29,225 nucleotides of DNA from a virus (IMGVR_UViG_3300023237_000054:1-29225), one strand, 5' to 3'. Shown: positions 11,596 to 28,248, counted from the first letter of the stretch. Made by a program: numbers and translations. Notes: generated from the sequence alone by a model not told the origin.

Positions 11596-11603
11596 TATTT
11601 ATA
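11566..11603. promoter_or_regulatory. Divergent late-promoter-like boxes overlapping two start codons
   Basis: Plus strand: AATAAATA at 11566-11573, 4 nt before ATG 11578. Minus strand: TATAAATA at 11603-11596, directly abutting the TTG at 11595. Both resemble the T4 late promoter consensus (TATAAATA, recognised by gp55 sigma). If used as in T4, transcription would start about 6 nt further, giving a leaderless plus-strand message and placing the minus-strand start inside the annotated N-terminus. The motif match is seen; use as promoters is inferred. Confidence 0.4.
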
Positions 11604-12336
11604 TAGGCAAAAGATACCTTGCCAAATAGTAGAACTTTTGGACACCAACAGAAGGACAGTCAGTGTGTATAATAGAGACATAAAAGCCTACCGTGGGGTA
11701 GCAAATAAATTCTTAATCGAAATTAAAAACCAAGATCAGAAACCCATTAATATCAGCGATCGTACAATTAAGTTAAATGTGCTAAATCCAGAGACTAATT
11801 CGGTTTATAGCACAACCACTGCCATTATTCATAGTGCCAGTAAAGGTCAGGCACTAGTGACACTAGATGACAATAACTTACTGGACTTACCTGCTACCTA
11901 TTACAATTACACCGTGGCAGTAACAAGTGGTGAGGGTAATGACGAGATTGCATATGCTGACGACAACTATGGGGTGCGTGGCACACTGCAAGTATTAGAT
12001 GGTCACTATCCAACGTTTACAGCCTCAACTGAGCTCACTGTTAATGCTGATAGTAATGTAACAAGTTATGTTATCAGTGACAAGAGTTCCAACCAGGGTA
12101 GTAAGTTGCATACTGCGGCATTTTACCTAAGCAACTATACAGGTAATATCCTTATTGAAGGCACACTGGACGATACTCCAAACTACGCTAGTGCAAATTA
12201 CTTTACCGTACAGACAAAAACATATGCCAGTGCAACAGGTACGTACTATGCAACCTGGACAGGTAACTATAGAGCTGTAAGGTTCACTCAAGTAAAAACT
12301 TCAGGGAGTATAACCAAAATACTATATCGTGGCTAA
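11578..12336 (+). CDS. Virion structural protein (baseplate/fibre-like, beta-rich)
   Basis: 252 aa from ATG 11578; the frame extends upstream to 11542, but that peptide lies in the minus-strand gene. The N-terminus (QFITQYLYRQKIPCQIVELL) is followed by an Ig-like beta domain of the phage upper-baseplate/fibre type, with a strand pattern such as ANKFLIEIKNQDQKPINIS and Asp-flanked turns (LVTLDDNNLLDLPA). The C-terminal part is Thr/Ser/Tyr-rich beta sandwich (ATWTGNYRAVRFTQVKTSG), a carbohydrate-binding style composition. A virion part is therefore likely, although it sits among replication genes. The next SGNH gene starts inside its last codons. Confidence 0.65.
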   Translation: MQFITQYLYRQKIPCQIVELLDTNRRTVSVYNRDIKAYRGVANKFLIEIKNQDQKPINISDRTIKLNVLNPETNSVYSTTTAIIHSASKGQALVTLDDNNLLDLPATYYNYTVAVTSGEGNDEIAYADDNYGVRGTLQVLDGHYPTFTASTELTVNADSNVTSYVISDKSSNQGSKLHTAAFYLSNYTGNILIEGTLDDTPNYASANYFTVQTKTYASATGTYYATWTGNYRAVRFTQVKTSGSITKILYRG

Positions 12337-13051
12337 ACGTATAGTATGTTTTGGCGACAGTTGGACTTACGGATCAGATTTAGTTGATCCTGCACTTGTT
12401 CCTAAATTAGAAAGTGAAGGTTACGGCGTTGACGACGCTGAATACAAATACTTTCACGAAAATCTTCCTTACAGAGAAGAACATAGATATTCCAGTCTAC
12501 TCGAAAAAGCATTAGGTACTCCTGTTTTAAATTTATCTAAACCTGCCGATAGTTTAATAGGTATGCGTGTTAAATTTATAGAATGGGTGCACCAGCAACC
12601 CAAAGATTGTTCAGACAGTCTAATAATATTTGCCACAACCTCACATGAGAGATACAGTTTTTACTCAGCAAAGGACAAGCAATGGCTAAGCAGTGGCTAC
12701 TTGCAATACGGTGATCAGCACCAGCCTTTAGTTGAACACTGGAAAAGACATTTGGTGCATAGCAGTGGTCCAGAACTGCATGATTATACGTTATTGGATT
12801 TTGTTATGTCATCAAGAGCACTTTGTAAAGAACGTAATATGAAATGGGTGTATGCTCCTGTTTTTCCAAAACGCACTCAAGGCAACATCGACGACAAGTT
12901 TGTTACAGAATGGAGTATGATGGATGTATGCACACACCGAGCAATGGAAGGACATAAAGTCTGGGCATGGGGAGAACATCCCAACGAGCTTGGTCACCAA
13001 TTTATAGCAAAATACTTGATAAGTTTTATGAAAGAGTGTAAACTTATATAG
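12329..13051 (+). CDS. SGNH/GDSL-hydrolase-like protein (copy 3 of 3)
   Basis: 240 aa, GTG start at 12329. This copy has the most classical block I: VCFGDSWTYGSDL with GDS (S11 nucleophile). A central FATTSHERYSFY may be the oxyanion-hole block, and the C-terminal HPNELGHQFIAKYL is a clear block V His (H217). The Asp expected three residues before the His is a Trp (W214), so the triad is incomplete or rearranged. A long insertion (about residues 20-60) separates block I from the rest. It overlaps the virion-type gene by 8 nt and the primase start by 1 nt. Substrate unknown. Confidence 0.75.
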   Translation: MAKRIVCFGDSWTYGSDLVDPALVPKLESEGYGVDDAEYKYFHENLPYREEHRYSSLLEKALGTPVLNLSKPADSLIGMRVKFIEWVHQQPKDCSDSLIIFATTSHERYSFYSAKDKQWLSSGYLQYGDQHQPLVEHWKRHLVHSSGPELHDYTLLDFVMSSRALCKERNMKWVYAPVFPKRTQGNIDDKFVTEWSMMDVCTHRAMEGHKVWAWGEHPNELGHQFIAKYLISFMKECKLI

Positions 13052-14076
13052 TGAATATTATACAGCAAACAGTCTTAGATAAATTGCCCTCAAAACGCAA
13101 GACAGCACCAAGTGGCTGGACTAGCTTTAATGCACAGTGCTGTACACATTTAGGCCATAGTCAAGACACCAGAGGTAGGGGCGGTATTATAACTGCACCA
13201 GACGGTTCGATATCCTACCACTGTTTTAACTGTAATTTTAAAAGCACCTGGCGTCCAGGGTGGCATTTTAACTTCAAGTTTCGTAGACTGTTATCCTGGT
13301 TTGGGGTAGCACAGAATGATGTACAACGTTTGGTGTTTGAAGCCATGCGTATCAGAGAAGAGCTTGTTGATGTTGTTGAAGAGATTGACAAACAGCAGGA
13401 AAAAATAGAGTTCGACCCAAGGCCACTGCCTGAAGAAAGTGCAGATATTAGACAAGTTGCCACAATGATGGCATTAGATCCCAATTACGAAATAACTCAG
13501 AACTTCAGAGATGTTGTCGGCTATGCAGTTGAGCGAAAGATTAACACACAACGCTATCCTATATTTTATAGCACCAGCAGTAATGTTAATATGGATAGGC
13601 GAGTTATTATACCGTTTACCTGGCAGGACAAGATAATAGGATATACTGCAAGAGCAATGGATCCCAGCATAAAGCCCAAGTACTTTAACAGTTATGATAG
13701 CAATTATGTATTCAATACAGATGCACAAACCAAGGACACCAAGTTTGTTATTGTGTGTGAAGGTCCTTTTGATGCAATGGCAGTTGATGGAGTTGCTATA
13801 TTAAGTAATAACATAAACGACACACAGGCTGAAATAATTGATAGGTTGGGTAAACGAGTAATTGTGGTACCAGACTTTGATCGAGCAGGACAGCGTATGA
13901 TACAAGACGCAATAGAATATGACTGGGAAGTTAGTTTCCCTACATGGTCAGAAACCTGTAAAGATGTTGGAGAAGCGGTACAACGATATGGTAAATTATT
14001 TGTAGTAAAAAACATCTTAGATAACGCACAGGCAAGTAAACTAAAGATTAATTTAATGCGTAAAGCAATAAAATAA
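13051..14076 (+). CDS. DNA primase, T4 gp61-like
   Basis: 341 aa, the same size as T4 gp61 (342 aa). An N-terminal zinc ribbon uses C30/C31, H33/H36, C58 and C61 (HCFNCNFK). The Toprim catalytic centre shows VCEGPFDAM (E237, D241) and VVPDFDRAGQ (D275, D277). The protein makes RNA primers at the fork together with the gp41 helicase, whose gene follows two genes downstream (15838). GTG start at 13051, sharing its first base with the upstream TAG; the stop overlaps the radical SAM start (TAATG). Confidence 0.9.
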   Translation: MNIIQQTVLDKLPSKRKTAPSGWTSFNAQCCTHLGHSQDTRGRGGIITAPDGSISYHCFNCNFKSTWRPGWHFNFKFRRLLSWFGVAQNDVQRLVFEAMRIREELVDVVEEIDKQQEKIEFDPRPLPEESADIRQVATMMALDPNYEITQNFRDVVGYAVERKINTQRYPIFYSTSSNVNMDRRVIIPFTWQDKIIGYTARAMDPSIKPKYFNSYDSNYVFNTDAQTKDTKFVIVCEGPFDAMAVDGVAILSNNINDTQAEIIDRLGKRVIVVPDFDRAGQRMIQDAIEYDWEVSFPTWSETCKDVGEAVQRYGKLFVVKNILDNAQASKLKINLMRKAIK

Positions 14077-15194
14077 TGGACCCAAAACAAAAGTTTTTTC
14101 TTTTTAAACAGTCACGCAATTTTTGTGCGGTGCCCTGGAACCACTTCAAAGTTGAAATGGATGGCACAGTAAAAACCTGCGTACATGGTATGGATACGTT
14201 GGGCAACTTATCCACCGACAACATTGATAGCATTTTACATAGCCCTGTAGTAAAGGATATAAGACAAACTCTGTATCAGGATAAGCCGCATAAAAATTGC
14301 ACACATTGCACCAGACACGAGGACGAAAGTGATCACAAGTACCTAAGAGATCTTTACAATCCCATGTTTAAGTTTGAGGACATAGATTACAGTGACGATT
14401 CTGCATTCCAACTAAGAGCAGTTGATCTACATTGGAGTTCTACCTGTAACTTAAAGTGTATTACGTGTTGGGCAAATCAGAGTAGCAGTATTGCACAGGA
14501 ACAGGGCAAACCAGTCTTACATACACCCAATGACCAAGCAGACAAGATAATAGACATAATTGTCGACAACCAGCACAACCTTAAAGAAATATACCTGAGT
14601 GGCGGTGAGCCTACCCTCATTAAGCATAATCAAAGACTGTTAAAGCGTTTGGACAAGAATATAGATTGTCAGTTTAGAATTAACACTAACATGATGTTCG
14701 AACAAGACAATGCCATAATAAACGAAATATTAAAGTTTAAAAATGTATTGTTTACAATAAGTGCTGACTCTACAGCAGATAGGTTTAATTATATTAGACG
14801 TGGGGCAGACTGGCAGAAGTTCCTAACAAATCTAACATGGTTACAGCAGAGTCACGCTAAGTTTAGGTTAAACAGTGTGTTCTTCATAGCAAGTGCGTTG
14901 TATCTGACAGACTGTCAGAAGTTTTTCCACAATAATTTTGGTATAACAGATTTTACAATTAACCAAGTCCTCATGGACCATACTGTTATTAAGTGTCGCA
15001 ACCTATCACACTCCCTTAAAGAAGATTGTAAAACTAAAATACTTGCACATAAACAGGAGTTTGCTGATAATGCAAACTTATGTAATGAGTTAGATGCTTG
15101 CCTACAAGAATTAAATTGTGATAAGGCAGATGACTATACATCTTTCTTTACACAGTTTCCAGGCAACTGGCAAGAGGTATTTCCTGAACTATGA
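14076..15194 (+). CDS. Radical SAM protein with N-terminal twitch/SPASM-like cysteines
   Basis: 372 aa. The radical SAM signature CNLKCITC (C124, C128, C131) would bind the 4Fe-4S cluster, and YLSGGEP (173-179) contacts S-adenosylmethionine. Upstream, NFCAVPW, TCVHG and CTHC (C17, C35, C75, C78) form an auxiliary-cluster pattern normally found after the radical SAM core (SPASM/twitch), so the domain order is permuted. Members of this type occur in marine phages and their substrate is unknown; peptide or nucleotide modification is possible. It lies between primase and SDR-like genes with 1-4 nt overlaps, so it is expressed with the replication genes. Confidence 0.82.
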   Translation: MDPKQKFFLFKQSRNFCAVPWNHFKVEMDGTVKTCVHGMDTLGNLSTDNIDSILHSPVVKDIRQTLYQDKPHKNCTHCTRHEDESDHKYLRDLYNPMFKFEDIDYSDDSAFQLRAVDLHWSSTCNLKCITCWANQSSSIAQEQGKPVLHTPNDQADKIIDIIVDNQHNLKEIYLSGGEPTLIKHNQRLLKRLDKNIDCQFRINTNMMFEQDNAIINEILKFKNVLFTISADSTADRFNYIRRGADWQKFLTNLTWLQQSHAKFRLNSVFFIASALYLTDCQKFFHNNFGITDFTINQVLMDHTVIKCRNLSHSLKEDCKTKILAHKQEFADNANLCNELDACLQELNCDKADDYTSFFTQFPGNWQEVFPEL

Positions 15195-18942: not shown

Positions 18943-19191
18943 GTGCAAAAGAAAACAAGAAGCCTATTAGATGAATTAGATATCTTTGTTTCACAAAGAG
19001 ATAATAATGTTCTAATAGAGAACAGAGCCCACAATGTTATTCTAAGTGCGATAAACTTGCTACAGCACATAAAAGAAACTTATGACTCAGAGACTGCCGC
19101 AAACTTAGAAAAACGTTTGCTAAACAGCATACGCACCGGGGAACCAGAAAAGTTTACCAGGGGTATAAGGAGAGCCAAACGTGAAGGTTAA
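18943..19191 (+). CDS. Small conserved late protein
   Basis: 82 aa, GTG start at 18943 preceded by GGAG (18933-18936) and a late promoter box. It is entirely helical and charged: KKTRSLLDELDIFV, ENRAHNVILSAINLLQHI, then EKRLLNSIRTGEPEKFTRGIRR. The sequence pattern matches a short family that recurs in T4-like marine phages next to head genes, with no assigned function that I know. It overlaps the next gene by 11 nt and is the first gene of the late operon. Confidence 0.7.
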   Translation: MQKKTRSLLDELDIFVSQRDNNVLIENRAHNVILSAINLLQHIKETYDSETAANLEKRLLNSIRTGEPEKFTRGIRRAKREG

Positions 19192-19450
19192 CGAGGTTGT
19201 TACAGAAGGCTGGAAAGATCTAGCATCACAGTTTGCTGGCGGACTTGCTGGAAAATCCGCTGACACTGTTAATTATGAAAAACAGAAAGCAGGAACAGAA
19301 AATGCAGAAAAAGAAAGAATACAAAAAGCGGCTAGAGAAAAAGGCATGTCAGTGCCACAATACCTAGATTGGCTTAAAAAACAAGCAACAGCACAGGGTA
19401 GTAGTATTAGTCTTGACACTAATATTTCTGCCGCAAAAAAGGCGCATTAA
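19181..19450 (+). CDS. Small late protein with candidate capsid-targeting N-terminus (A)
   Basis: 89 aa, GTG start at 19181 preceded by AAGGAG (19167-19172). Residues 1-10 (MKVNEVVTEG) end in V-T-E-G, close to the T4 prohead-protease consensus (L/I)-x-E|(A/G). Residues 20-27 GGLAGKSA are identical in the next protein, so the N-terminal regions are related. The rest is a Lys/Glu/Ala-rich helix (KERIQKAAREKG) and a flexible tail. It could be an internal head protein that is cut after Glu9. The overall family is not recognised. Confidence 0.6.
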   Translation: MKVNEVVTEGWKDLASQFAGGLAGKSADTVNYEKQKAGTENAEKERIQKAAREKGMSVPQYLDWLKKQATAQGSSISLDTNISAAKKAH

Positions 19451-20040
19451 TGAAAGTTAAAGAATTATTTGAGGCAGGGTTGTGGGCACAAATCGCAGGT
19501 GGTTTGGCAGGCAAAAGTGCTGGGCAAATTGATCGTGAAGAGCGATCCTATACAAAACAACAAAAAGCAAACCAAACTGCACAACAGTCAGTAACTAATA
19601 CGCCTGTACAACAAAAAGCAAACCAAACTGCACAACAGTCTCCTGCACAACTTAATGCAAATTTAGATGCTAAAATAGCGTATGCAAAGTCTAGAGGCTG
19701 GATTGGATCGAGGCCTACTAATCAGGATAAAGCATATCTTGACAGTGTGGATGTTGATATAGATCCAAACAGATTTAACAACGTTGATCCTAAAACATTT
19801 TTTATACCACACCAACCTCTTCATGTAAAATCCGCCCTGGACGAATTTTCTGTATCAACAGTTGAACTTAACAGGGCGTTGGGATTTAAGCATCAAGAAG
19901 AATTTAAAGGATACTCTACTATAACACTTACACCAGCAGGTTGGTACTCTGTAAACAGACAAGCATATATTAACCCTAACAGTAAAGCACAGACTGTGAT
20001 TGACATGTTCTATAATAGAAGCAAGGGCGGAACACGATGA
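19450..20040 (+). CDS. Late protein with candidate capsid-targeting N-terminus (B), repeat-containing
   Basis: 196 aa, ATG at 19450 overlapping the upstream TAA. The N-terminus MKVKELFEAG contains L-F-E|A, an exact match to the T4 gp21 cleavage consensus. GGLAGKSA (17-24) repeats the upstream protein's motif. Residues about 36-64 are Gln-rich with two copies of QQKANQTAQQS encoded by a 33-bp direct repeat. The C-terminal half is globular: FFIPHQPLHVKSALDEFSV and a final beta segment ending YINPNSKAQTVIDMF. The paired N-terminal structure suggests a fused targeting peptide plus a separate functional domain of unknown role. Confidence 0.65.
   Translation: MKVKELFEAGLWAQIAGGLAGKSAGQIDREERSYTKQQKANQTAQQSVTNTPVQQKANQTAQQSPAQLNANLDAKIAYAKSRGWIGSRPTNQDKAYLDSVDVDIDPNRFNNVDPKTFFIPHQPLHVKSALDEFSVSTVELNRALGFKHQEEFKGYSTITLTPAGWYSVNRQAYINPNSKAQTVIDMFYNRSKGGTR
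19557..19640 (+). repeat. 33-bp direct repeat, period 51 nt, in frame
   Basis: Identical 33-bp copies at 19557-19589 and 19608-19640, period 51 nt (17 codons). Each encodes QQKANQTAQQS. The perfect nucleotide identity points to a recent tandem duplication; the frame is kept and a Gln-rich linker is lengthened. Confidence 0.9.
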
Positions 20041-20735
20041 TATCAGAAGGTGGTAAAGCAATTCCTTCAGCACTGCCAGTTACACTTAAGAACTTTGATG
20101 CTGTTAAGAAGAACTTACAAAAGGCGTTACCACTTGGTATAGACATGTACGCTATTGGTTCAGCAGGCAAGAAAGAAGTTAGCAGTGACGTTGATGTTCT
20201 TATTGATGCCGAACAGTTACTAGACATATTTCCGTTAGATGACTTAAAACTAGCTAGACAAGCATTGGAAAAACATTTCCAAAACATGGGGCTAGAAGCA
20301 AAACGCACTGGTGTTAGTATACACGTTGGCGTACCTAACGGTGAAGGCGGTGTGGCACAAGTAGACTTAATGGCAGTTAATAATGCACAAGCGGCACAGC
20401 CATTGCATACACATGATTATACTGATCCCAACATGAAAGGTGGGACACTACATGCTATGTGGGCAGACCTAGCAAACATGAGTGCGACACCTGAAGCAGA
20501 AAGTTTAATGATGAGTCCATACAAAGGACTAGTTAACAGGGAAACTAAGGAATTGGTCTCCAACAACAAAGATGAAATAGCAAAGATTATTATTGGTCCC
20601 AGTGCCACAGCAGACGACATGGGCAATCCCACAAAGTTACTAAAGGCATTGGAGCCCTATCCTAAAAAGTACGACGCAATTAAAAACAAATACATGGCAA
20701 CAGAGTGGAATCAAAAATGGCAGAACCTACAGTAG
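20037..20735 (+). CDS. Nucleotidyltransferase (Pol beta-like superfamily)
   Basis: 232 aa, ATG at 20037 in the stop of the upstream gene, with an AAGGGCGG site. GSAGKKEVSSDVDVLID (41-57) is the GS...DxD signature of the Pol beta nucleotidyltransferase superfamily (D51, D53), and VAQVDLMAV supplies the third acid (D110). The family transfers NMPs to nucleic acids, antibiotics or proteins; the target here is unknown. The N-terminus MISEGGK contains I-S-E|G, again a prohead-protease-like site. The neighbours are a KxDG ligase-like protein and an HxGH nucleotidylyltransferase, so three nucleotidyl-transfer folds are adjacent. Confidence 0.85.
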   Translation: MISEGGKAIPSALPVTLKNFDAVKKNLQKALPLGIDMYAIGSAGKKEVSSDVDVLIDAEQLLDIFPLDDLKLARQALEKHFQNMGLEAKRTGVSIHVGVPNGEGGVAQVDLMAVNNAQAAQPLHTHDYTDPNMKGGTLHAMWADLANMSATPEAESLMMSPYKGLVNRETKELVSNNKDEIAKIIIGPSATADDMGNPTKLLKALEPYPKKYDAIKNKYMATEWNQKWQNLQ

Positions 20736-21832
20736 GCAGAAAGTATCAACACATTGAAGATCTGGTATTCACTAACGGCAGTCGTGGTGGACTACATGCT
20801 GTTGGGCGTCTTAAAGACATGCAAGAGTCCGGCGGTATAGAAATAAAGTGGGACGGAATGCCTGTAGTGTACTGGGGAGAAGTTCACGGTAAGTTTACGG
20901 TTCTGATGAAGAATGCTCTTGCATACCTTAAGCGTGGTGTGAGAGAGGTTGGTGCAGGTATCCCTACACTGGCAACAGGACCGCAGGATGTAACAGACTT
21001 CGTAGCAGGTACAGGTAAGATTAAACCAGAACAACAAGATGCTAGACAGGCACTTGCTAAAGACATGGGTGCATTATGGCCTTACTTACGTAACGCAAGT
21101 CCTAAAAAGGGACTAGTGGAAGGTGGGTTATTGTTCCATCCAGGAAAGCCTGCTGTGTTAAACAAAGCAACAAACGAATACGAGTTCCAACCTAATGTAA
21201 CAAAGTTTCATATTCCAGCAGACAGCAATTTAGGCAAGCGTATTGCTACTGCAACAATCATGGTAGCGATTACTGGATACCAAGAAGACATAATGTCGCC
21301 TGAAGGTCGTCTGGATAATGTAGAGAAGTTAAGCACACCGGATGTCATTGTACAAGGCACAGCGTATACTGAAGAAAAACCTAAACTTGACGACAAAGGG
21401 TTAGGTATTGTGGAACGTTATATTAGCAGTAATGCCAGTAAAATAGATGACTTTATTGGTGGCCAGTCAGGATTAAAAAGACCAGGCGATGTGTTATATA
21501 AGTTCTACAATCAGTCGCTTAGAATACCAGGTGCAAAGAAAGGTTTTACAGACTGGGTACAAAATAACTTAAGTGCTGAGCAAGCACAAAAAGTTTTAAA
21601 CCATCCTGGATTAGACGCTACGCTTAACGCAGTTGAAATGATAACAGGACAAAAGAATCTGGTATTACAGCAGTTAGGGTCAGCAACACACGGTGATATC
21701 AGACAGACTAAACCAGAAGGTTATGTGCAAGCTCATCCAGGTAAAGAGTTTAAGGCTGACTTACCGGGACAGTTTATTAAAATGATTGATCAACCGACTT
21801 GGACGCCTAACAGAGGCTTTAAAGATAAGTAG
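20717..21832 (+). CDS. Ligase-like nucleotidyltransferase (KxDG) protein
   Basis: 371 aa from ATG 20717 (GTG 20705 is the other option). IEIKWDG (41-47) fits motif I (KxDG) of ATP/NAD-dependent ligases and capping enzymes, where Lys44 would accept the nucleotidyl group. GLVEGGLLFHPG and FQPNVTKFHI downstream correspond to motif III/IIIa-like strands. I recall related KWDG proteins in T4-like cyanophages with no proven activity, and the C-terminal half lacks an obvious OB-fold motif VI. The 3' end of the nucleotidyltransferase gene overlaps its start by 19 nt. It might seal or nucleotidylate RNA, DNA or a protein; substrate unknown. Confidence 0.7.
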   Translation: MAEPTVGRKYQHIEDLVFTNGSRGGLHAVGRLKDMQESGGIEIKWDGMPVVYWGEVHGKFTVLMKNALAYLKRGVREVGAGIPTLATGPQDVTDFVAGTGKIKPEQQDARQALAKDMGALWPYLRNASPKKGLVEGGLLFHPGKPAVLNKATNEYEFQPNVTKFHIPADSNLGKRIATATIMVAITGYQEDIMSPEGRLDNVEKLSTPDVIVQGTAYTEEKPKLDDKGLGIVERYISSNASKIDDFIGGQSGLKRPGDVLYKFYNQSLRIPGAKKGFTDWVQNNLSAEQAQKVLNHPGLDATLNAVEMITGQKNLVLQQLGSATHGDIRQTKPEGYVQAHPGKEFKADLPGQFIKMIDQPTWTPNRGFKDK

Positions 21833-21836
21833 TACT

Positions 21837-22427
21837 ATGAGAGCAAAAGAAATATTAAGAGAAGCACCAGAACAACGTGTAGCCTTTAGTTGGGGTAGGT
21901 TTCAGCCACCACACTTAGGACACGCAGAGGTGTTTAAGAAACTGGAGTCAGTAGGAAACTATGGTTTCTGGATAGGCACGGGACAAACAACCGATCCTAA
22001 AAAGAATCCATTGCAGTATGCAGACAAAGTTGCTATACTGAAACAGATGTTTCCTGGGCACAGCGACAACATATTATCTGACCCCAGTATTAAGACAGTA
22101 TACAATGCTATTGTAGCAATATATAACAAATACGATCCCAAAGAAGCAGAGAACATTACTTTAGTTTTTGTTGGTGATCCAGAAAGAATTAACGACTTCG
22201 TTGGTAGTTTTAAAAAGTTTAATGGTGTTGAAGCACGTCATGGTTATTACAAGTTTAAAGATGTAACCGGATTTGCTAACACCGATAAAGGTGATGTGAG
22301 AGCAACAGATGTTCGAGGTGCAGTGCAGGCTAAGGACATGACAAAATTTCAACAACTTACTGGTTTAACTGGTGAGTTGGCTCAGACAGTTTTTAACAAG
22401 GTAGCAAAGGGAATGGGCGTTGTTTGA
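21837..22427 (+). CDS. HxGH-type adenylyl/cytidylyltransferase (NadM-like)
   Basis: 196 aa from ATG 21837, 4 nt after the ligase-like stop; the frame extends to 21786 inside that gene. GRFQPPHLGH (20-29) is the T/HxGH motif of the nucleotidylyltransferase superfamily, and GDVRATDVRGAV near the C-terminus corresponds to the ISxTxxR motif. This is the fold of NMN adenylyltransferase and CTP:phosphocholine or glycerol-phosphate transferases. The N-terminus MRAKEILREAPEQ holds L-R-E|A ahead of the domain, a candidate prohead-protease site. NAD synthesis or head-group activation are both possible. Confidence 0.82.
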   Translation: MRAKEILREAPEQRVAFSWGRFQPPHLGHAEVFKKLESVGNYGFWIGTGQTTDPKKNPLQYADKVAILKQMFPGHSDNILSDPSIKTVYNAIVAIYNKYDPKEAENITLVFVGDPERINDFVGSFKKFNGVEARHGYYKFKDVTGFANTDKGDVRATDVRGAVQAKDMTKFQQLTGLTGELAQTVFNKVAKGMGVV

Positions 22428-22977
22428 CTTTATTCAAGAATTAAATGAAAGCAGGATTTTTAGGTACGAACACGACTTCGAGGGGATGTCTGCTCGTGAC
22501 CTAGGTCATCTACTGTATCAAATTGTTATGATGTTGGAAATTATTAGACATTATGACAAAAACTGGGTTAAACAGTATGCTAAGAAGACATATCAGTTTG
22601 GGGGGTTTCCAGGAATGAAGGCTGCCCAAACTGATATGTACAATCTTATAAGTGTTGTTAATAACCAAGACAAATATGACACGTATTTAAAGACTGACAA
22701 GTCAGTGTATGTTCCTGACTTTGGCATCAAACGTTATTTGTTAGACATTATTAACGATAATAGACACATCACCAGAGACAGAGCACTATTCACTAAACTA
22801 GAAGACACATTAAAAGTACAGGATAGTGCTCTTAAAAACATCAGACGCTTAGTAAGTTACTGGGACAACTACAGTGACGCACAAAAGAAAACAACAGTAG
22901 TAAATCTTAGACAGAACGTTCGTTCTGACACTCCTTATATTGACGTATACTGGTCAAAATTTAAAGAACTAGCATAA
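22420..22977 (+). CDS. Conserved helical late protein
   Basis: 185 aa. TTG start at 22420 with AAAGGGA (22406-22412) upstream, overlapping the HxGH gene by 8 nt. The N-terminus FDFIQELNESRIF is followed by an all-helical protein with GMSARDLGHLLYQIVMML, KQYAKKT and a basic C-terminal helix QDSALKNIRRLVSYW. I recall a similar protein in T4-like cyanophages beside virion genes, function unknown. It ends the NTase operon; a late promoter box overlaps its last codons. Confidence 0.65.
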   Translation: MFDFIQELNESRIFRYEHDFEGMSARDLGHLLYQIVMMLEIIRHYDKNWVKQYAKKTYQFGGFPGMKAAQTDMYNLISVVNNQDKYDTYLKTDKSVYVPDFGIKRYLLDIINDNRHITRDRALFTKLEDTLKVQDSALKNIRRLVSYWDNYSDAQKKTTVVNLRQNVRSDTPYIDVYWSKFKELA

Positions 22978-22980
22978 ATA
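22973..22980 (+). promoter_or_regulatory. Late promoter-like box CATAAATA
   Basis: CATAAATA, one mismatch from the T4-type consensus, 48 nt before the ATG at 23029. A strong AAGGAG ribosome site (23016-23021) follows. It probably gives a monocistronic message ending at the terminator at 23507-23540. Confidence 0.6.
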
Positions 22981-23028
22981 ATAGTAAGTTAGCGAACAGG
23001 CTAATAATAAAATTTAAGGAGTTTTAAA

Positions 23029-23487
23029 ATGGCAGACGTAACAAGAGTACATGGTAACGCACATGGTGTGGTTCATCAGGACAGAGGCCTCTCTGGTAGT
23101 GGAGCATTAAGTGGTGACGAGTTAGTAGTTAACATTGGTAGAAGTGCTAAGTTCTTTGGAATCGTTATTTACAACGCATCTGGATCAGGCGGCGCAGGTA
23201 ATGTCGATCTACAAAACGAATTAGACGCTGGCGAATCAGTTGAAGCAATTCTTAAAGCAGTTGCGGCATCTACCGTTTCTAGCGTACAATACGGTGGTGA
23301 GATTTTAGCATATCAGGTACAAGACGATGCTAACGGTCAAATCAGCGTTATGGTTGCTGGTTCAAATTGGACAGGCGCAACATTGCAAACAGCAATTCGT
23401 GCATTAGGCGCAACAGTTGGTGGCAATTCAAAAGACGTAACAGGCACACTCGTAACAGATACAGGCATGAAGTTAGCACTATCATAA
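23029..23487 (+). CDS. Small virion protein, first of a tandem paralogous pair
   Basis: 152 aa, ATG 23029 with AAGGAG 7 nt upstream. It starts MADVTRVHGNAHGVV and is Ala/Gly/Ser/Val-rich, with strands such as FFGIVIYNAS, GGEILAYQVQDD and GQISVMVAGSNW. The next gene (23587-24018) shares the MAD-TRVHG start and the AYQV-DD-GQISV core, so they are duplicates. The individual late promoter, perfect ribosome site and strong terminator imply high, monocistronic expression, as for an abundant capsid decoration or tail protein. Which virion part is not determined. Confidence 0.75.
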   Translation: MADVTRVHGNAHGVVHQDRGLSGSGALSGDELVVNIGRSAKFFGIVIYNASGSGGAGNVDLQNELDAGESVEAILKAVAASTVSSVQYGGEILAYQVQDDANGQISVMVAGSNWTGATLQTAIRALGATVGGNSKDVTGTLVTDTGMKLALS

Positions 23488-23506
23488 TTTAGAGTTTTAG
23501 TAACTT

Positions 23507-23540
23507 AAAAAAGGGCGCATATTATTTGCGCCTTTTTTTT
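23507..23540 (+). terminator. Rho-independent terminator after the first virion gene
   Basis: Stem GGCGCA (23514-23519) / TGCGCC (23527-23532) with a 7-nt loop, flanked by a 6-nt A-tract and followed by a run of eight T (23533-23540). The A/T flanks extend the stem. A classic intrinsic terminator, strong on the plus strand; the A-tract makes it partly bidirectional. Confidence 0.9.
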
Positions 23541-23548
23541 ATAACCAG

Positions 23549-23556
23549 TATAAATA
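23549..23556 (+). promoter_or_regulatory. Late promoter box TATAAATA
   Basis: Perfect T4-type late box starting 9 nt after the terminator and lying 30 nt before ATG 23587. A ribosome site AAGGAG (23575-23580) follows. It drives the second tandem virion gene independently. Confidence 0.75.
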
Positions 23557-23586
23557 CTACAAATACATTTAATTAAGGAGTGACAA

Positions 23587-24018
23587 ATGGCAGATTTAAC
23601 AAGAGTACACGGTAGCCCATCAGGTAACGTGTCATATGACAGATCAGTAGCAAACGTTGGTAACATCTCAGCAGACGAACTAGTAGATGTTGTAGGTCGT
23701 AAGTTAGACTTTTTCAAAATTGTTATTCAAAACGGTTCTAGTACTAACCAAGACTTGCGTTCAGAAATGGGACCTAACGAGTGTGTAGAAAAAGTTTTAC
23801 AAATTATCCAAAACTACACAGACGGTACTAACGAAGGAACTGCAACTCTCGTAGCATATCAGGTAGAAGGCGACGACACAGGACAAATCAGTGTTGCAGT
23901 TGAAGGTTCTAGCTGGACAGCGTCAGCATTGCAGGCGTCCATTCGTGCTACTACAACATTGAACTCAATCAATGTTACAGGTACAGACGTTACAGCACCT
24001 GGGTTAGATTTAGCATAA
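23587..24018 (+). CDS. Small virion protein, second of a tandem paralogous pair
   Basis: 143 aa, ATG 23587 with AAGGAG 6 nt upstream. MADLTRVHGSPSGNV and VAYQVEGDDTGQISVAVEGSSW align with the preceding protein; sequence divergence is substantial, so this is an old duplication. It has its own TATAAATA promoter and is followed by a terminator (24040-24070). As with its twin, the expression signals fit an abundant virion component made late. The two may form a heteromeric or specialised pair. Confidence 0.75.
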   Translation: MADLTRVHGSPSGNVSYDRSVANVGNISADELVDVVGRKLDFFKIVIQNGSSTNQDLRSEMGPNECVEKVLQIIQNYTDGTNEGTATLVAYQVEGDDTGQISVAVEGSSWTASALQASIRATTTLNSINVTGTDVTAPGLDLA

Positions 24019-24032
24019 TACTAAATTAACAC

Positions 24033-24040
24033 TATAAATA
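24033..24040 (+). promoter_or_regulatory. Late promoter box TATAAATA overlapping a terminator
   Basis: Perfect TATAAATA immediately before, and sharing its last base with, the A-tract of the next terminator. If used, transcription would begin about 24046, inside the hairpin, with the next gene's ATG at 24071. Confidence 0.5.
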
Positions 24041-24070
24041 AAAAGGCATACATTTTGTGTGCCTTTTTTT
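24040..24070 (+). terminator. Rho-independent terminator after the second virion gene
   Basis: Stem GGCATACA (24045-24052) / TGTGTGCC (24056-24063), one T-G wobble and a 3-nt loop, with a 5' A-tract and seven T at 24064-24070. The T-run ends directly at the ATG (24071) of the next gene, so the terminator abuts a start codon. Confidence 0.85.
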
Positions 24071-24487
24071 ATGCACTGTCAAAGTTTACATAGAGATTTA
24101 AGAATACAGCAAGTGCCCTTAACACAATTAAGTTCACTTTTTATACACCCCAACGAACGTTTTAAATGGAAGGTTCTCCCAACGATGCGGGATCAAGGTA
24201 TGTATTACCCATTAGCAGTGTGTAAGATAACAACGGAGTTGTTTAGTAAACAATTCTGGGGTAAACTTAAAGTAGATCCTGTAGTAAACGAGGATAATTT
24301 AGTCTGGGCAATTAAAATGGGAGCTAATAGATATGATGCCGCCCTTCATCTTGGATATACATCTATAGATGTAATTATACATCCCAATCTAAATGATTGT
24401 ATTACCTGGGACCGTTACTTTAAGTATGTTAATCCTTTATTCAATAAAGATCCTGAGCCTTACCAGGCAAAGTTTACATATGAGTAA
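24071..24487 (+). CDS. ParB/sulfiredoxin-like domain protein
   Basis: 138 aa from ATG 24071 (a GTG at 24059 is inside the terminator). IQQVPLTQLSSLFIHPNERF, GMYYPLAV and the C-terminal NRYDAALHLGYTSIDVIIHP follow the pattern of the ParB-N/Srx fold, in which a (G/A)NRYxAAxxLGYxxIxVII stretch binds nucleotide or acts as nuclease. Phage proteins of this type are often of unknown function. No ribosome site exists because the terminator T-run sits before the ATG, so translation is probably weak or depends on read-through. ATG 24185 is an in-frame alternative with GGAAGG upstream, but it would lose part of the domain. Confidence 0.7.
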   Translation: MHCQSLHRDLRIQQVPLTQLSSLFIHPNERFKWKVLPTMRDQGMYYPLAVCKITTELFSKQFWGKLKVDPVVNEDNLVWAIKMGANRYDAALHLGYTSIDVIIHPNLNDCITWDRYFKYVNPLFNKDPEPYQAKFTYE

Positions 24488-24986
24488 AATACACGGTCAT
24501 AGTGCAGGCAGTGTGGAAGGCAGAGGCAGTTGTGTAATTGATTGTTATACACTAGTGGATATGACTAGAACAGGCGTAGTAGCATACTACAAAGAAGGCA
24601 TGCCTATGTTCAATGATGATGCAGATCAACTAATTAATGACGAGAAGTCCTGGATTAGAAGCCGTAATCAACAACGTAACTACGAAACCTGCATACAAGT
24701 AATTAGTTTAAGGGCCCAACCTGTGTATCTGGAAGATCCTAAACGATTGCGTAAACAGGACATGTCGCTCTATAATTTTACTGATATCACAGGCACCCAC
24801 GACATCTGGCATTTTAGTTTTAGTCCAGAACAGCCGGATGTATACAGAATAGGTGACGATCCTGTTGCCGCTCTTAATAATGATACACACAATATACCTA
24901 TAATAACTGGTTTACACGAAACAGCAGTAGTAGAAATACCCATACTACATATAGGTATAAATATATATTACAAACTCAGGTGGTAA
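24480..24986 (+). CDS. Unknown late protein
   Basis: 168 aa from ATG 24480, overlapping the upstream stop by 8 nt; the open frame extends to 24393 inside that gene. The N-terminus is SKIHGHSAGSVEGRGSCVIDCY, the middle has two Cys and a basic SRNQQRNYE segment, and the end is beta-rich (TDITGTHDIWHFSF, HIGINIYYKLRW). No catalytic signature is found. Its place between virion and lysis-like genes suggests a structural or assembly role, but that is inference. A TATAAATA box lies inside its 3' end (24956-24963). Confidence 0.65.
   Translation: MSKIHGHSAGSVEGRGSCVIDCYTLVDMTRTGVVAYYKEGMPMFNDDADQLINDEKSWIRSRNQQRNYETCIQVISLRAQPVYLEDPKRLRKQDMSLYNFTDITGTHDIWHFSFSPEQPDVYRIGDDPVAALNNDTHNIPIITGLHETAVVEIPILHIGINIYYKLRW
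24956..24963 (+). promoter_or_regulatory. Late promoter box TATAAATA inside the end of the unknown gene
   Basis: Perfect TATAAATA within the last codons of the gene at 24480-24986, with a related AATAAATA at 24991-24998. Either could serve the short interrupted frame at 25000 and the holin-like gene at 25092. Confidence 0.5.
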
Positions 24987-24999
24987 AAGGAATAAATAC

Positions 25000-25098
25000 T
25001 TGGGTAATAAACGGCACATATACTAGGCACTCACTACTCTGGCACTATCAACAGGCATAGCTCTATCAGTTTTAACTTACATAGGAAGAGAGTGGTGA
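25000..25098 (+). pseudogene. Short hydrophobic frame interrupted by an amber codon
   Basis: Frame TTG 25000 ... TGA 25096-25098 contains TAG at 25024-25026. After the TAG it encodes a 23-residue segment with LALSTGIALSVLTYIG, which looks like a transmembrane helix, and its TGA overlaps the GTG (25095) of the next gene, as for coupled phage genes. This suggests a former small membrane gene broken near its start, or an amber read-through or non-standard start (CTG 25039). Evidence is limited to composition and stop/start overlap. Confidence 0.3.
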
Positions 25099-25382
25099 CA
25101 ATTAAACAACAAACAATCGAGAAGAAAAATCTTTCCGCCCACGTAGATTTATGTGCCGAAAGGTACAAAGAATTGAACATTAATTTTAAAATCCTAGAGA
25201 ACCGATTAGATTCTTTATCTACCCACTTGTTGGGTCTGAAAGAGGACATGAATAAGGTCACAGCCCGCATTAATAACCGCATCTTAACTATTGCAGGTAC
25301 TACTATTGCTGTTATGACCACTGCTGTTATAGCCTTAGTGCTGAAACTAATTGATGTTATTTCAATCATGCCTGTATCCTAA
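25092..25382 (+). CDS. Coiled-coil plus C-terminal membrane segment protein (holin/XhlA-like)
   Basis: 96 aa. Two GTG codons (25092 and 25095) follow AGGA (25083-25086); 25095 would overlap the upstream TGA. The N-terminal about 65 residues are heptad-like (AERYKELNINFKILENRLDS, then SLSTHLLGLKEDMNKV), followed by a basic RINNR and a long hydrophobic helix ILTIAGTTIAVMTTAVIALV. This coiled-coil plus single C-terminal TM design resembles XhlA-type lysis proteins and holin accessory proteins. Role in lysis is inferred from this architecture and from its late position. Confidence 0.55.
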   Translation: MVTIKQQTIEKKNLSAHVDLCAERYKELNINFKILENRLDSLSTHLLGLKEDMNKVTARINNRILTIAGTTIAVMTTAVIALVLKLIDVISIMPVS

Positions 25383-25384
25383 AT

Positions 25385-25861
25385 GTGAAAACTCAAACAG
25401 CAATAAAACTTAAACAGTCAGCAAAAAAACTTAAACAGTTTACTACTAAGCATCTGCCAGATATATTATTCAATAGCCCTGATATAATTTGGGCCAAGGA
25501 AGATAATAGTCTTATGGTAGGAGAACTGCGTGTTTATAAGAATAAACACGGTACCTACTCAGTAAATCTAGCTGGTGGCAAGGTATGTAATTTCTATAAA
25601 CAAAAACATGCGGTATGTTATGCCAGTTATTACCAACTATGCAACCTCAATCGCTGTAGTAATATTGCTATTTTAGACAGTAAATTAGAAAATTACACAC
25701 AAGATGTAGAGTACTACAAACAACAACTAACACTACACTACAAAAACAACAATAAGGATAAGTTTTTGCTATACTATGCTAGATATAGTCAAGCTCTTCC
25801 AATCAAGAAACAAACCGAACAGGAATGTAAGAAAAGTATCTTTCTGGCTAAATATAATTAA
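25385..25861 (+). CDS. Conserved hypothetical protein
   Basis: 158 aa from GTG 25385, 2 nt after the holin-like stop. A basic helical N-terminus (KLKQSAKKLKQFTTKHLP) is followed by a strand-rich core (IIWAKEDNSLMVGELRVYKN, GTYSVNLAGGKVCNF), five Cys residues and a Lys/Gln/Tyr-rich coiled-coil C-terminus (YYKQQLTLHYKNNNK). No enzyme signature is evident. Similar architectures occur as hypothetical proteins in T4-like marine phages near head genes. Confidence 0.6.
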   Translation: MKTQTAIKLKQSAKKLKQFTTKHLPDILFNSPDIIWAKEDNSLMVGELRVYKNKHGTYSVNLAGGKVCNFYKQKHAVCYASYYQLCNLNRCSNIAILDSKLENYTQDVEYYKQQLTLHYKNNNKDKFLLYYARYSQALPIKKQTEQECKKSIFLAKYN

Positions 25862-25878
25862 ATTTAGGAATTCTTAAT

Positions 25879-26511
25879 ATGCAACTTAACGACTTAAAGA
25901 GAAAAAACACAAAAAAAGTAATGGAAAGCAGATTTGGCTTTGCTGTTAACTTTGATAGAATGACAGTGGAAAAAGCGGAAGGGTTGTTAGAAACAATTTC
26001 TTCTGGTATGGAGAACGTCCGTAACAGCAGTTCTTTCCACACAGCCGAAAAGAACCCACGTTATATGGAACTTTTAATGGTTAAAGAGAGTCTAACTGAC
26101 TGGTTAGATGACACAGTTGAAGTAGTGGTAGAAGGTGAAGTACAAACTGCTGAAGTTCTGTTAGCTGCCAAGGACATTACAGATAGATTACAAGGTATGG
26201 TAGAGGATTTGGGAGAAATTCTAAACGAAGATCTTCCACCATTAGGCGATAGCATTAATGACCAGATGGGCGGAGGCAAAGGCACACAGTATGTTAATTC
26301 AGCAAGCGCCACAATCCAGGGGTTATTAGATGCAATGACGGCCGCACGAATGTCATTAGACGATGCAAGTAAAATCGTTACTGGTGAAGGTCCTGATCCT
26401 GCAATGGCAGGTGAGATGCCCGTAGAAGAGCCTGCAATGGCAGATATGCCAGAAGAAGAGCCTATGATAGAGCCTGAAGAGGACGAGCCAGTCGGCAGAG
26501 AAATGCGCTAA
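25879..26511 (+). CDS. Head/core-associated-like helical protein with acidic tail
   Basis: 210 aa. Helical body with MTVEKAEGLLETISSGMENV, MVKESLTDWLDD and AAKDITDRLQGMVEDLGEIL, then NSASATIQGLLDAMTAARMSL. The C-terminal 40 residues are strongly acidic and Met/Pro-rich with a duplicated AMA-MP-EEP element. I recall such proteins in T4-like marine phages near scaffold and core genes, so a prohead core or internal protein is likely, but this is not proven. The following gene starts in its stop codon (TAATG). Confidence 0.6.
   Translation: MQLNDLKRKNTKKVMESRFGFAVNFDRMTVEKAEGLLETISSGMENVRNSSSFHTAEKNPRYMELLMVKESLTDWLDDTVEVVVEGEVQTAEVLLAAKDITDRLQGMVEDLGEILNEDLPPLGDSINDQMGGGKGTQYVNSASATIQGLLDAMTAARMSLDDASKIVTGEGPDPAMAGEMPVEEPAMADMPEEEPMIEPEEDEPVGREMR
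26398..26443 (+). repeat. In-frame repeat in the acidic tail
   Basis: A 13-bp unit occurs at 26398-26410 and 26431-26443, period 33 nt (11 codons). Each copy encodes PAMA followed by MP-EEP. The frame is kept, suggesting slippage growth of a flexible tail. Confidence 0.8.
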
Positions 26512-26858
26512 TGCGTTTTTCAGAGTTACATGAAGATCAACAGGAGCTAGTCTCAAAGCTGGCTTCTGTCCTTGAGTTCCTTAAAGGTCGATCTCAAGAT
26601 AGCGGCTTACAGCCAAATATCACTTTAAACAGTCTAGTAAAAATGGTTGGCAATACAGGAACACAAATTGATCCTAATACAATACAACAGTTGTTTAACG
26701 AGCCAACAATACGAAACCTAATTAAAAATATAGACGGTAACATGGTTACTCTTAATTTAGATGGTGGAATGACCCAATTACAGCCTGGTGGTGGCAACAT
26801 GCCTCCTGAGGTTAAAGTTAACCAAATGGCAAAAAGAGCATTGAGTCGTAGACAATAA
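26511..26858 (+). CDS. Small late protein of unknown function
   Basis: 115 aa, ATG 26511 overlapping the upstream TAA. The N-terminus MRFSELHEDQQELV resembles the short amphipathic peptides of the late NTase cluster, but the expected E|A/G cleavage is absent (H-E-D). It has a helical body (SKLASVLEFLKGRSQ, QQLFNEPTIRNLIKN), then a Gly/Pro-rich loop (GGMTQLQPGGGNMP) and a basic C-terminus. No recognised family. Confidence 0.6.
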   Translation: MRFSELHEDQQELVSKLASVLEFLKGRSQDSGLQPNITLNSLVKMVGNTGTQIDPNTIQQLFNEPTIRNLIKNIDGNMVTLNLDGGMTQLQPGGGNMPPEVKVNQMAKRALSRRQ

Positions 26859-26869
26859 TCTGTTATAAT
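26841..26869 (+). promoter_or_regulatory. Sigma70-type promoter ahead of the Fe-S carrier gene
   Basis: TTGAGT at 26841-26846, a 17-nt spacer, and TATAAT at 26864-26869: a near-consensus host-type promoter inside the late block. The -10 box ends 6 nt before ATG 26876, so the message would be leaderless or nearly so. This is unlike the TATAAATA late boxes around it. Confidence 0.6.
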
Positions 26870-26875
26870 ACACAC

Positions 26876-27190
26876 ATGATTACATTTACCCCCCGAGCAT
26901 ACGATCACTTTTACAAGTACGTAAGTGATAATAAAACCCTACGAATAAGTTTTAAACAACAAGGCTGTACTGGTTATAGTTATCAACTTGACTGGCTCGA
27001 TCACATACCAGAAGGCTTCAAGGTTAGTAAGCAAGGTGATGTAACTTATACATGGGACCCTGTGCATGAAGACTGGCTTACCGGCACAACTGTAGACATG
27101 CAAGTTAAAGGTCTTAATAATTTATTAGTATTCCTAAACCCTAACGAAATAGCTAGTTGTGGGTGCGGGGAAAGTGTTACTTTTAAATAA
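26876..27190 (+). CDS. A-type Fe-S cluster carrier (IscA/HesB-like)
   Basis: 104 aa, the usual size for this family. C31 lies in QGCTGYSYQLDW and the C-terminal CGCG (C95, C97) follows NPNEIAS, which are the three cluster-binding cysteines of IscA/SufA/HesB proteins. The protein receives and hands on 2Fe-2S or 4Fe-4S clusters. It may supply the phage radical SAM enzyme (14076-15194) or host enzymes, though that link is inferred. It has an apparent host-type promoter and no ribosome-binding site, so it may be translated as a leaderless message. Similar genes are known in marine T4-like phages. Confidence 0.88.
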   Translation: MITFTPRAYDHFYKYVSDNKTLRISFKQQGCTGYSYQLDWLDHIPEGFKVSKQGDVTYTWDPVHEDWLTGTTVDMQVKGLNNLLVFLNPNEIASCGCGESVTFK

Positions 27191-27193
27191 ATA
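27186..27193 (+). promoter_or_regulatory. Late promoter-like box AATAAATA
   Basis: AATAAATA overlapping the stop of the Fe-S carrier gene, 17 nt before ATG 27211. An AAAGGA ribosome site (27198-27203) lies between. One mismatch from the late consensus. Confidence 0.5.
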
Positions 27194-27210
27194 CACTAAA
27201 GGATACTAGC

Positions 27211-27570
27211 ATGGCATTTTTACCAACATCAGCAAACGCAAGAGAACAATCGCAAGGCAACGCCGTAGTTGCTGGCGAGATTGCAATCTTAACACAGCGT
27301 GTACTAATCGCAATTAGTTCGGGTGTGTTTACTATTACTGCCACAAGTGCAACCACTATTACTATTAACGGTACCACTATTACTGGCAGTGTAATGACCA
27401 ACGCTGATGCAACAGGTAGAGAATATTACACAGCCTGGCAAGGCACAACGACAGATGCAGTAAAAACCGAGCAGATGACAGAAGTTATCTCGCATTTTCA
27501 AAAACTAGGATATGCTATTGTCCGCAAATCAACAACAGGTACTGAGCTATATTGGCAAATGTCCTGGTAA
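27211..27570 (+). CDS. Small virion-type protein, Thr/Ile-rich beta
   Basis: 119 aa, ATG 27211 with AAAGGA upstream and a late box. Thr/Ala/Ile-rich beta strands (FTITATSATTITINGTTITG) contain a 21-nt imperfect nucleotide repeat (27352-27384). These are followed by REYYTAWQGTTTDAVKTEQM and a C-terminal HFQKLGYAIVRKSTTGTELYWQ. The composition is that of an exposed structural protein or fibre/decoration component. No family is recognised, and there is no membrane or signal segment. Confidence 0.65.
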   Translation: MAFLPTSANAREQSQGNAVVAGEIAILTQRVLIAISSGVFTITATSATTITINGTTITGSVMTNADATGREYYTAWQGTTTDAVKTEQMTEVISHFQKLGYAIVRKSTTGTELYWQMSW

Positions 27571-27573
27571 TCG

Positions 27574-28248
27574 ATGATCACAGACCGATACGAATACGTA
27601 AGAATCAATAGAAAAAACATAGACGGAAAAAGACATTACCTCACACCAGAGGGAGATGCTGTTCCATCTGTAACTACTGTTCTTGATAAAACTAAACCTG
27701 CTGAAAAAATGCAGGCACTAATGAACTGGCGAAAGCGTGTAGGTGAAACCAAAGCACAACAGATAGTAACTGAAGCCGCCAACGTTGGTACAGTTCTACA
27801 CAAAAAACTAGAAGAATACTGTTTAGGTACACTGGAAGCACCAGGTAGTAACCTTATACAACAACAAGCAGACAAGATGGCTCGTGTGGTTATTGACACT
27901 GGGCTAACGGATATGAATGAGTGTTGGGGGGTAGAGGTTCCTTTGTACTACTCGGGGCTATATGCTGGCACAACAGACTGTGTGTGCATGTTTAAAGGTG
28001 AGCCTGCTGTCTTAGACTTTAAACAAACGAACAAGCCTAAAAAACGTGAATGGATTGAGGATTACTTCCTGCAATTAAGTGCGTATATTTTAGCACACGA
28101 CAAAACACACAACACCGAGATTAAACGTGGTGTGATTTTAATGTGTTCAAGAGATTTAACCTACCAACAGTTTGAGATCGAAGGTGACGAACTAGAGTTC
28201 TGGAAACAGAAATGGTGGGATAGAGTAGAGCAATATTATAATAAATAA
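27574..28248 (+). CDS. PD-(D/E)XK exonuclease, MGME1/RecB-like
   Basis: 224 aa, ATG 27574, 3 nt after the upstream stop. PSVTTVLDKT (31-40) and GTVLH (72-76) are followed by WGVEVPL (E121), AGTTDCV (D135), AVLDFKQ (D148, K150) and DYFLQLSAY (Q167), all in the order and spacing of the RecB/Cas4/MGME1 nuclease group. The protein is expected to degrade single-stranded DNA or process DNA ends, using Mg2+ or Mn2+. It lies beside tail and head genes, so it may be made late for DNA end processing or recombination-repair. Confidence 0.88.
   Translation: MITDRYEYVRINRKNIDGKRHYLTPEGDAVPSVTTVLDKTKPAEKMQALMNWRKRVGETKAQQIVTEAANVGTVLHKKLEEYCLGTLEAPGSNLIQQQADKMARVVIDTGLTDMNECWGVEVPLYYSGLYAGTTDCVCMFKGEPAVLDFKQTNKPKKREWIEDYFLQLSAYILAHDKTHNTEIKRGVILMCSRDLTYQQFEIEGDELEFWKQKWWDRVEQYYNK
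28240..28247 (+). promoter_or_regulatory. Late promoter-like box AATAAATA
   Basis: AATAAATA overlapping the nuclease stop (TAA 28246-28248), about 30 nt before GTG 28277. AAGGA at 28264-28268 is a good ribosome site. One mismatch from the late consensus. Confidence 0.45.

Follow-up and report, generated by a model that had tools for sequence, protein, structure and literature searches.

Why do several late genes of a marine giant phage, unrelated in what they encode, open with similar short peptides? The question arises within a 29,225-nucleotide stretch of viral DNA (IMGVR_UViG_3300023237_000054:1-29225; hereafter the window), for which a first-pass annotation had proposed that four consecutive late proteins, beginning at 19181, 19450, 20037 and 21837, bear a cleavable virion-packaging signal like that of the T4 internal head proteins. 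As far as sequence comparison can tell, a short N-terminal peptide found on several unrelated proteins of this phage and its relatives matches the T4 head-loading signal. We judge it likely, at a probability of about 0.75, that the peptides at 19181, 19450, 21837 and probably 26511 are capsid-targeting sequences (CTS) of the T4 type, and that the proteins bearing them are packaged; the tags would then be cleaved and the proteins likely delivered to the host. The strongest support is conservation among relatives, and this reading is the best supported because the gp21-class protease, the L-x-E sites, the tagged homologs, virion mass spectrometry (MS) and the presence or absence of the tag on homologs all bear on it.

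N-terminal peptides of a late gene cassette

A T4-related jumbo phage is represented by G001, an IMG/VR contig of 289,070 bp whose positions 220492-249716 match the window at 99.99% identity. Because 107 of its 340 predicted proteins match phage PA5oct, G001 is a distant relative of the Arenbergviridae; genes were called with a simple in-house caller, which recovered 90 of the 93 PA5oct genes marked by MS. The features discussed below are these (an arrow marks the predicted cut):

18943..19191, + strand: 82 amino acids, head/virion-structural family phrog_11854; first gene of the cassette, homolog of PA5oct EST35_0225
19181..19450, + strand: 89 amino acids; tag MKVNEVVTE↓G; GTG start with AAGGAG upstream; predicted mature end Gly10
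19450..20040, + strand: 196 amino acids; tag MKVKELFE↓A; predicted mature end Ala9
20037..20735, + strand: 232-amino-acid Pol-beta-type nucleotidyltransferase; start MISE↓G, unconvincing as a tag
20705/20717..21832, + strand: DUF6267 (PF19782), predicted ligase-like covalent nucleotidyltransferase; start MESKMAE↓P, no clear tag
21837..22427, + strand: 196-amino-acid HxGH nucleotidylyltransferase (CTP_transf_like, PF01467, 3.5e-8); tag MRAKEILRE↓A; predicted mature end Ala10
22420..22977, + strand: 185 amino acids; possible tag MFDFIQELNE↓S; uncertain TTG start; overlooked in the first-pass annotation
25879..26511, + strand: 210 amino acids, related to virion structural family phrog_14154; homolog of PA5oct EST35_0237 (MS-detected)
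26511..26858, + strand: 115 amino acids; tag MRFSELHE↓D; positional counterpart of PA5oct EST35_0238

The open reading frames and N-termini at 19181, 19450, 20037, 21837 and 26511 are present as originally described. Those at 19181, 19450, 21837 and 26511 share the form M[KR]φxx(φ)φxE (φ, hydrophobic), and the T4-type signal that had been proposed stands for 19181, 19450 and 21837, each of which has a short N-terminal peptide ending in L/I-x-E (V-x-E in 19181) before a small residue. It does not extend to 20037, whose MISE↓G we rejected: at four residues, with no targeting helix like that of T4 IPIII, it is indistinguishable from chance. Seven relatives share the 20037 start in the form MI[ST]E↓GG. 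Nor do four tagged proteins follow one another, since the untagged DUF6267 gene (20705-21832) lies between 20037 and 21837, and of the two enzymes put forward as tagged cargo only the HxGH nucleotidylyltransferase at 21837 keeps that place. The peptide at 26511 had been called similar but without the cleavage residue, and so it proves: Asp follows the Glu, and the residue in its relatives is D, N or K. We grade a packaging tag as likely on 19181, 19450 and 21837 and as plausible on 26511 and 22420; that at 26511 probably targets and is perhaps poorly cleaved.

Orthologs of 19181 begin MKIKEVITE↓G, MKVKEVVTE↓G or MKINEVVTE↓G. Five relatives of 19450 keep MKVKELFE↓A, and in a further homolog (locus L005) the N-terminal half has been replaced, yet a tag is present (MKIKELTE↓G). 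Both 19181 and 19450 have GGLAGKSA downstream, so that they probably count as paralogs, not as two separate instances. The tags of 19181, 19450 and 21837 have 8-9 residues, slightly short of T4's, and when positions are compared with IPIII the window register is shorter by one or two; both hydrophobics and the Glu preceding the cut are retained in 19181 and 21837, where the equivalent of position 4 is V or A. The tag shape of this lineage would extend the T4 form to a shorter register.

Such peptides exceed chance in G001. The strict motif ^M[KR]x2-9[LIV]xE[AGS] occurs in 7 of the 340 genes against 0.8 expected (maximum 5 in 500 shuffles). A refined set of registers finds 13 proteins against 1.0 expected (maximum 6 in 1000 shuffles), with 8 against 0.11 in the 9-residue register alone. 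G001 itself helped to shape these register-specific patterns, which makes the strict count the cleaner of the two. Elsewhere the refined patterns find 2 of 301 in G006 and 2 of 178 in cyanophage S-SM1. The 13 tagged G001 genes fall mainly into clusters at 32.5-34.6, 185.7-188.9 and 239.7-247.3 kb, with one at 213.8 kb. Bare L-x-E[AGS] near the start is weakly above chance (26 against 18 expected), so it is the peptide as a whole, rather than the cleavage tripeptide, that carries the signal; the loose L-x-E search was dropped as too close to chance.

Both a cognate gp21-class protease and a scaffold core, as a CTS system calls for, occur in this one genome. The prohead protease (Peptidase_S77, PF03420, 1.4e-27; 55% identity to that of PA5oct) is encoded at G001:153459-153893, and the major capsid protein is of the gp23 class (PF07068, 2e-99; 65% identity to that of PA5oct). 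The capsid propeptide contains four L/I-x-E sites (LLE↓G, LLE↓G, ILE↓N and LAE↓S, ending at 7, 19, 34 and 42) where 0.6 are expected (p 0.0015), and in the PA5oct propeptide each of these four positions likewise holds an L/V-x-E site; a scaffold-like G001 protein has 23 L/I/V-x-E sites, about twice the 11.7 found in shuffles. The propeptide and scaffold-like sites are indirect evidence that the G001 protease has the T4 preference.

Tagged homologs in other phages and in virions

Homologs of the 21837 enzyme were found by tblastn in 474 phage records, mostly of cyanophages, and a profile scan of IMG/VR gave 80 loci for the family. These loci and the window's relatives yielded 80 distinct N-termini, and the motif search in related phages that had been suggested came out positive: MKxFxxFxxE fits 61 of them. 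The frame itself fixes K2, F4, F7 and E10, so that the free observations are the fitting share, position 8 (L, I, F or V in all 61) and position 11 (Ala in 55 of the 61). Across the tagged homologs the enzyme motif begins 31-154 residues from the start, a spacing that places the tag outside the enzyme fold. Mutational work on T4 IPIII, as reviewed in PMC9026906, ties residues 4 and 7 mainly to targeting and residues 8 and 10 to processing, and the cyanophage-type homologs match at both pairs; the T4 IPII/IPIII N-terminus in the record is MKTYQEFIAE↓A. We found no report of a CTS on the cyanophage cytidylyltransferase in the literature covered, subscription journals and preprints lying outside that coverage.

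One of these homologs has been seen in particles. The cytidylyltransferase T4-GC190 was detected by MS in purified S-SM1 virions (Sullivan et al. 2010, PMC3037559), and the protein concerned, SSM1_190, begins MKKFSAFLNE↓AERSF. The untagged PA5oct homolog EST35_0307 (MSILTSILNN...) carries no MS mark, and the untagged homolog CBB_73 is not among the covered entries of the CBB MS table. A tagged S-SM1 protein in the virion and untagged PA5oct and CBB proteins not seen there make three data points, which are no more than suggestive; the tag is a possible explanation for the appearance of a cytidylyltransferase in cyanophage virions in 2010.

The cassette also has a counterpart in a phage with virion proteomics. 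Window positions 18943-28248 are syntenic with PA5oct EST35_0225-0240, the genes at 18943, 24480, 25879, 27211 and 27574 matching EST35_0225, 0234, 0237, 0239 and 0240 in order, and 11 of the 16 genes in that PA5oct block (0226, 0227, 0230-0235 and 0237-0239) are marked by electrospray ionization tandem MS (ESI-MS/MS). EST35_0231, which is MS-detected and untagged, aligns with 20037 over the catalytic motif (hhalign E 5.9e-5, probability 65%). Two other alignments are weak: that of EST35_0228, which was not MS-detected, with DUF6267 (E 1.8e-4), and that of EST35_0238 (MKIKDILVE↓S, MS-detected) with 26511 (E 0.19).

The suggestion that one tag sits on unrelated domains is borne out by the 13 tagged G001 proteins and by gain and loss of the tag on DUF6267. 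In homologous loci, 19 non-enzyme genes are tagged against 4.6 expected. In 34 of 89 loci the DUF6267 gene immediately precedes that of the nucleotidylyltransferase; the window clade and the majority of cyanophage loci have DUF6267 without a tag, and it is tagged in L011 (MRFKEIIQE↓A), L013 (MKSFKQHITE↓A), C48C1 (MMLDFKNFITE↓Q) and Melnitz (MINFSKYITE↓D). L011 also encodes, at 7130-12556, a polyvalent-type protein of 1808 amino acids that begins with the tag MKIANLLE↓A, has a nucleotidylyltransferase domain at its head, and comprises CTP_transf_like, DUF5661, DUF6934, Amidoligase_2 and NT5C domains.

Some side observations concern these same domains. A C-terminal EYQG...YW-type domain recurs on tagged proteins (L020 14914-16866, L019 24608-24925 and G001 187243-188259); it is phrog_7595 in the latter two, and is fused once to a nucleotidylyltransferase. 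At L016 7390-9500, the DUF6267 gene is apparently split at the position of ligase motif I by an intein-like insert ending ...EVIIHN↓SPAVFAGTDP (here the arrow marks the end of the insert).

Proposed mechanism and competing readings

We infer targeting, cleavage and injection in this phage along the following lines. While the prohead is being assembled, the short helix would attach to the scaffold core by its hydrophobic face and bring its cargo into the head. A cut after L/I/V-x-E by the gp21-class protease would then free the mature protein, which would be left among the DNA. The enzymes are probably packed beside the DNA and may be delivered to the host at the start of infection, and cargo including the HxGH nucleotidylyltransferase would likely travel with the DNA as T4 IPI and Alt do. 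The tag is modular, sitting on unrelated proteins and coming and going on homologs of one domain. Such a tag would provide a sequence rule for predicting the head-carried proteins of T4-related phages, including abundant marine ones, and would make the time-zero effectors of uncultured phages testable.

The kind of system is known, namely the T4 CTS and internal proteins; what is new is the cargo and the slightly shorter register. With T4 IPI, IPII, IPIII and Alt the proteins share an N-terminal peptide with L/I-x-E before A/G, a gp21-class protease, a gp23 capsid, hydrophobic positions 4 and 7 (in the homologs) and diverse cargo on one kind of tag. They differ in that the cargo is a predicted nucleotidylyltransferase and other proteins, not IP or Alt homologs, in that packaging of the window cargo is predicted from sequence, and in their 8-9-residue tags that mostly lack the position-4 aromatic. 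S-SM1 T4-GC190 has a homologous HxGH domain, an N-terminal tag and a DUF6267-family neighbour upstream, but its tag has 10 residues and a long linker, whereas that of 21837 has 9 and is joined almost directly to the enzyme; the covered part of PMC3037559 reports virion presence and mentions no signal. In P1, too, an N-terminal peptide sends a large injected protein, DarB, into the head (Iyer et al. 2017, PMC5512222), and the architecture of the 1808-residue L011 protein resembles that of the polyvalent proteins described in the same work. In phiKZ, SPN3US and 201phi2-1, prohead proteases cut head proteins after Glu and many ejected head proteins have cleaved propeptides; there, however, the protease is only a diverged gp21 homolog, and a short T4-like tag is not described in the review PMC9026906.

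Several observations weigh against a cleaved, T4-type signal. In PA5oct, a previously fixed pattern is not significantly associated with MS detection (2/93 against 2/212, p 0.36), and a significant association (7/93 against 2/212, p 0.004) arose only after the pattern was widened post hoc. The PA5oct counterpart of the nucleotidyltransferase is in the virion untagged, so the tag is not the sole route into the particle. The MS support comes from relatives, and neo-N-termini are unreported in the covered part of the S-SM1 study (PMC3037559). The window tags have 8-9 residues and not 10, mostly without an aromatic at T4 position 4, and some other tagged G001 proteins have unusual residues (K, E, I, D) after the cut. 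Those residues, with the D or N in the 26511 orthologs, would suit peptides that only target: core-binding helices on scaffold-associated proteins that, instead of being injected, remain in the particle or exit from the prohead, L-x-E being a part of the helix that is not always cut. In T4, Asp at position 10 blocks processing and not targeting (PMC9026906), and PA5oct EST35_0150 (MKINDIITE↓G) is encoded between the genes for the portal and the protease, a place taken in T4 by core genes 67 and 68. A mere helix, however, would not need the Ala that follows the site in 55 of 61 nucleotidylyltransferase tags, which fits a protease site, and enzymatic cargo has no obvious scaffold role; we regard targeting alone as unlikely.

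Less probable again is that the proteins enter the virion by another route – because they themselves bind DNA or the head, or because they are late proteins abundant enough to contaminate the preparation – with the tag incidental. The detection of untagged EST35_0231 speaks for this, as does the presence of NrdA, NrdB and ClpP, likely contaminants, in the PA5oct MS list, but it sits poorly with the nucleotidylyltransferase homologs, of which the tagged one was seen in virions and the untagged two were not, within the MS data covered. We give slightly less credence still to the view that the starts are amphipathic in an ordinary way, through recent paralogy or translation-initiation bias, and play no part in packaging. 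The probable paralogy of 19181 and 19450 is in keeping with it, many proteins start with M-K/R, Glu is a common residue, and the bare cleavage motif hardly exceeds chance expectation; against it stand the shuffle controls (7 against 0.8, and 13 against 1.0), the retention of the tag in the homologs of many phages while the linker varies from 31 to 154 residues, and the published MS that puts a tagged homolog in virions (PMC3037559).

Putative cargo enzymes and other genes

If the tags are T4-type CTS, the cargo would include an HxGH nucleotidylyltransferase. The sole PDB sequence match of this 21837 enzyme is MJ0541 (1f9a; E 0.0037), an archaeal nicotinamide mononucleotide adenylyltransferase (NMNAT). 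A NAPRTase-family gene was looked for in G001 and not found, so a role in restoring nicotinamide adenine dinucleotide is not favoured. In the DUF6267 alignment K44, D46 and G47 are invariant and E334, G335, V337 and K355 nearly so, the motifs being KWDG (44-47) and EGYV (334-337) in the form starting at 20717; the best PDB matches of its AlphaFold model (predicted local distance difference test, pLDDT, 82) are mostly RNA ligases, at E values of at least 0.09 and low TM-scores. The 20037 protein shows GS...SDVDVLID...QVDL in alignment (Pol-beta GS...DxD). No phage homologs of it were found by tblastn, and IMG/VR gave close relatives only; its AlphaFold model has a pLDDT of 40, so the class rests on these motifs and the PA5oct comparison.

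PADLOC gave no defence match among the cargo proteins. A reasonable conjecture, and no more than that, is that they work together in nucleotidyl transfer on RNA or cofactors at an early stage. A broader idea, which we hold only tentatively, is that T4-related marine and jumbo phages share a virion-delivered HxGH nucleotidylyltransferase and DUF6267 ligase-like enzyme (with the Pol-beta-type enzyme in this lineage), partly loaded by an exchangeable capsid tag; their targets in the opening minutes of infection might be, for instance, RNA or cofactors that host defences had damaged. If true, a cyanomyovirus core gene would encode an injected effector.

Two further G001 proteins with tag-like starts have recognizable features. 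That at 32933-33538 (L024:12933-13535; 201 amino acids) begins MSNDIYKILE↓G and ends in sigma-70 region 4 (PF04545, 1.2e-7), making a virion-borne transcription factor possible. That at 213796-214542 (L033:13796-14539) begins MRAYQFLTE↓G and contains, by eye, a PD-(D/E)xK-like stretch (DIEATYNGKPFNIEIKAS); a Pfam search gave no match.

Elsewhere in the window, 23029-23487 and 23587-24018 are tandem paralogs (about 45% identical, MAD[VL]TRVHG), roughly where PA5oct has the MS-detected EST35_0232-0233. The late block also encodes a HesB/IscA-like iron-sulphur cluster biosynthesis protein at 26876-27190 (PF01521, 4.7e-11), and 14076-15194 appears radical-SAM-like by eye (CNLKCITC). Outside the window, G001 164905-167352 has dense internal repeats of about 85-94% identity, possibly in a fibre gene.

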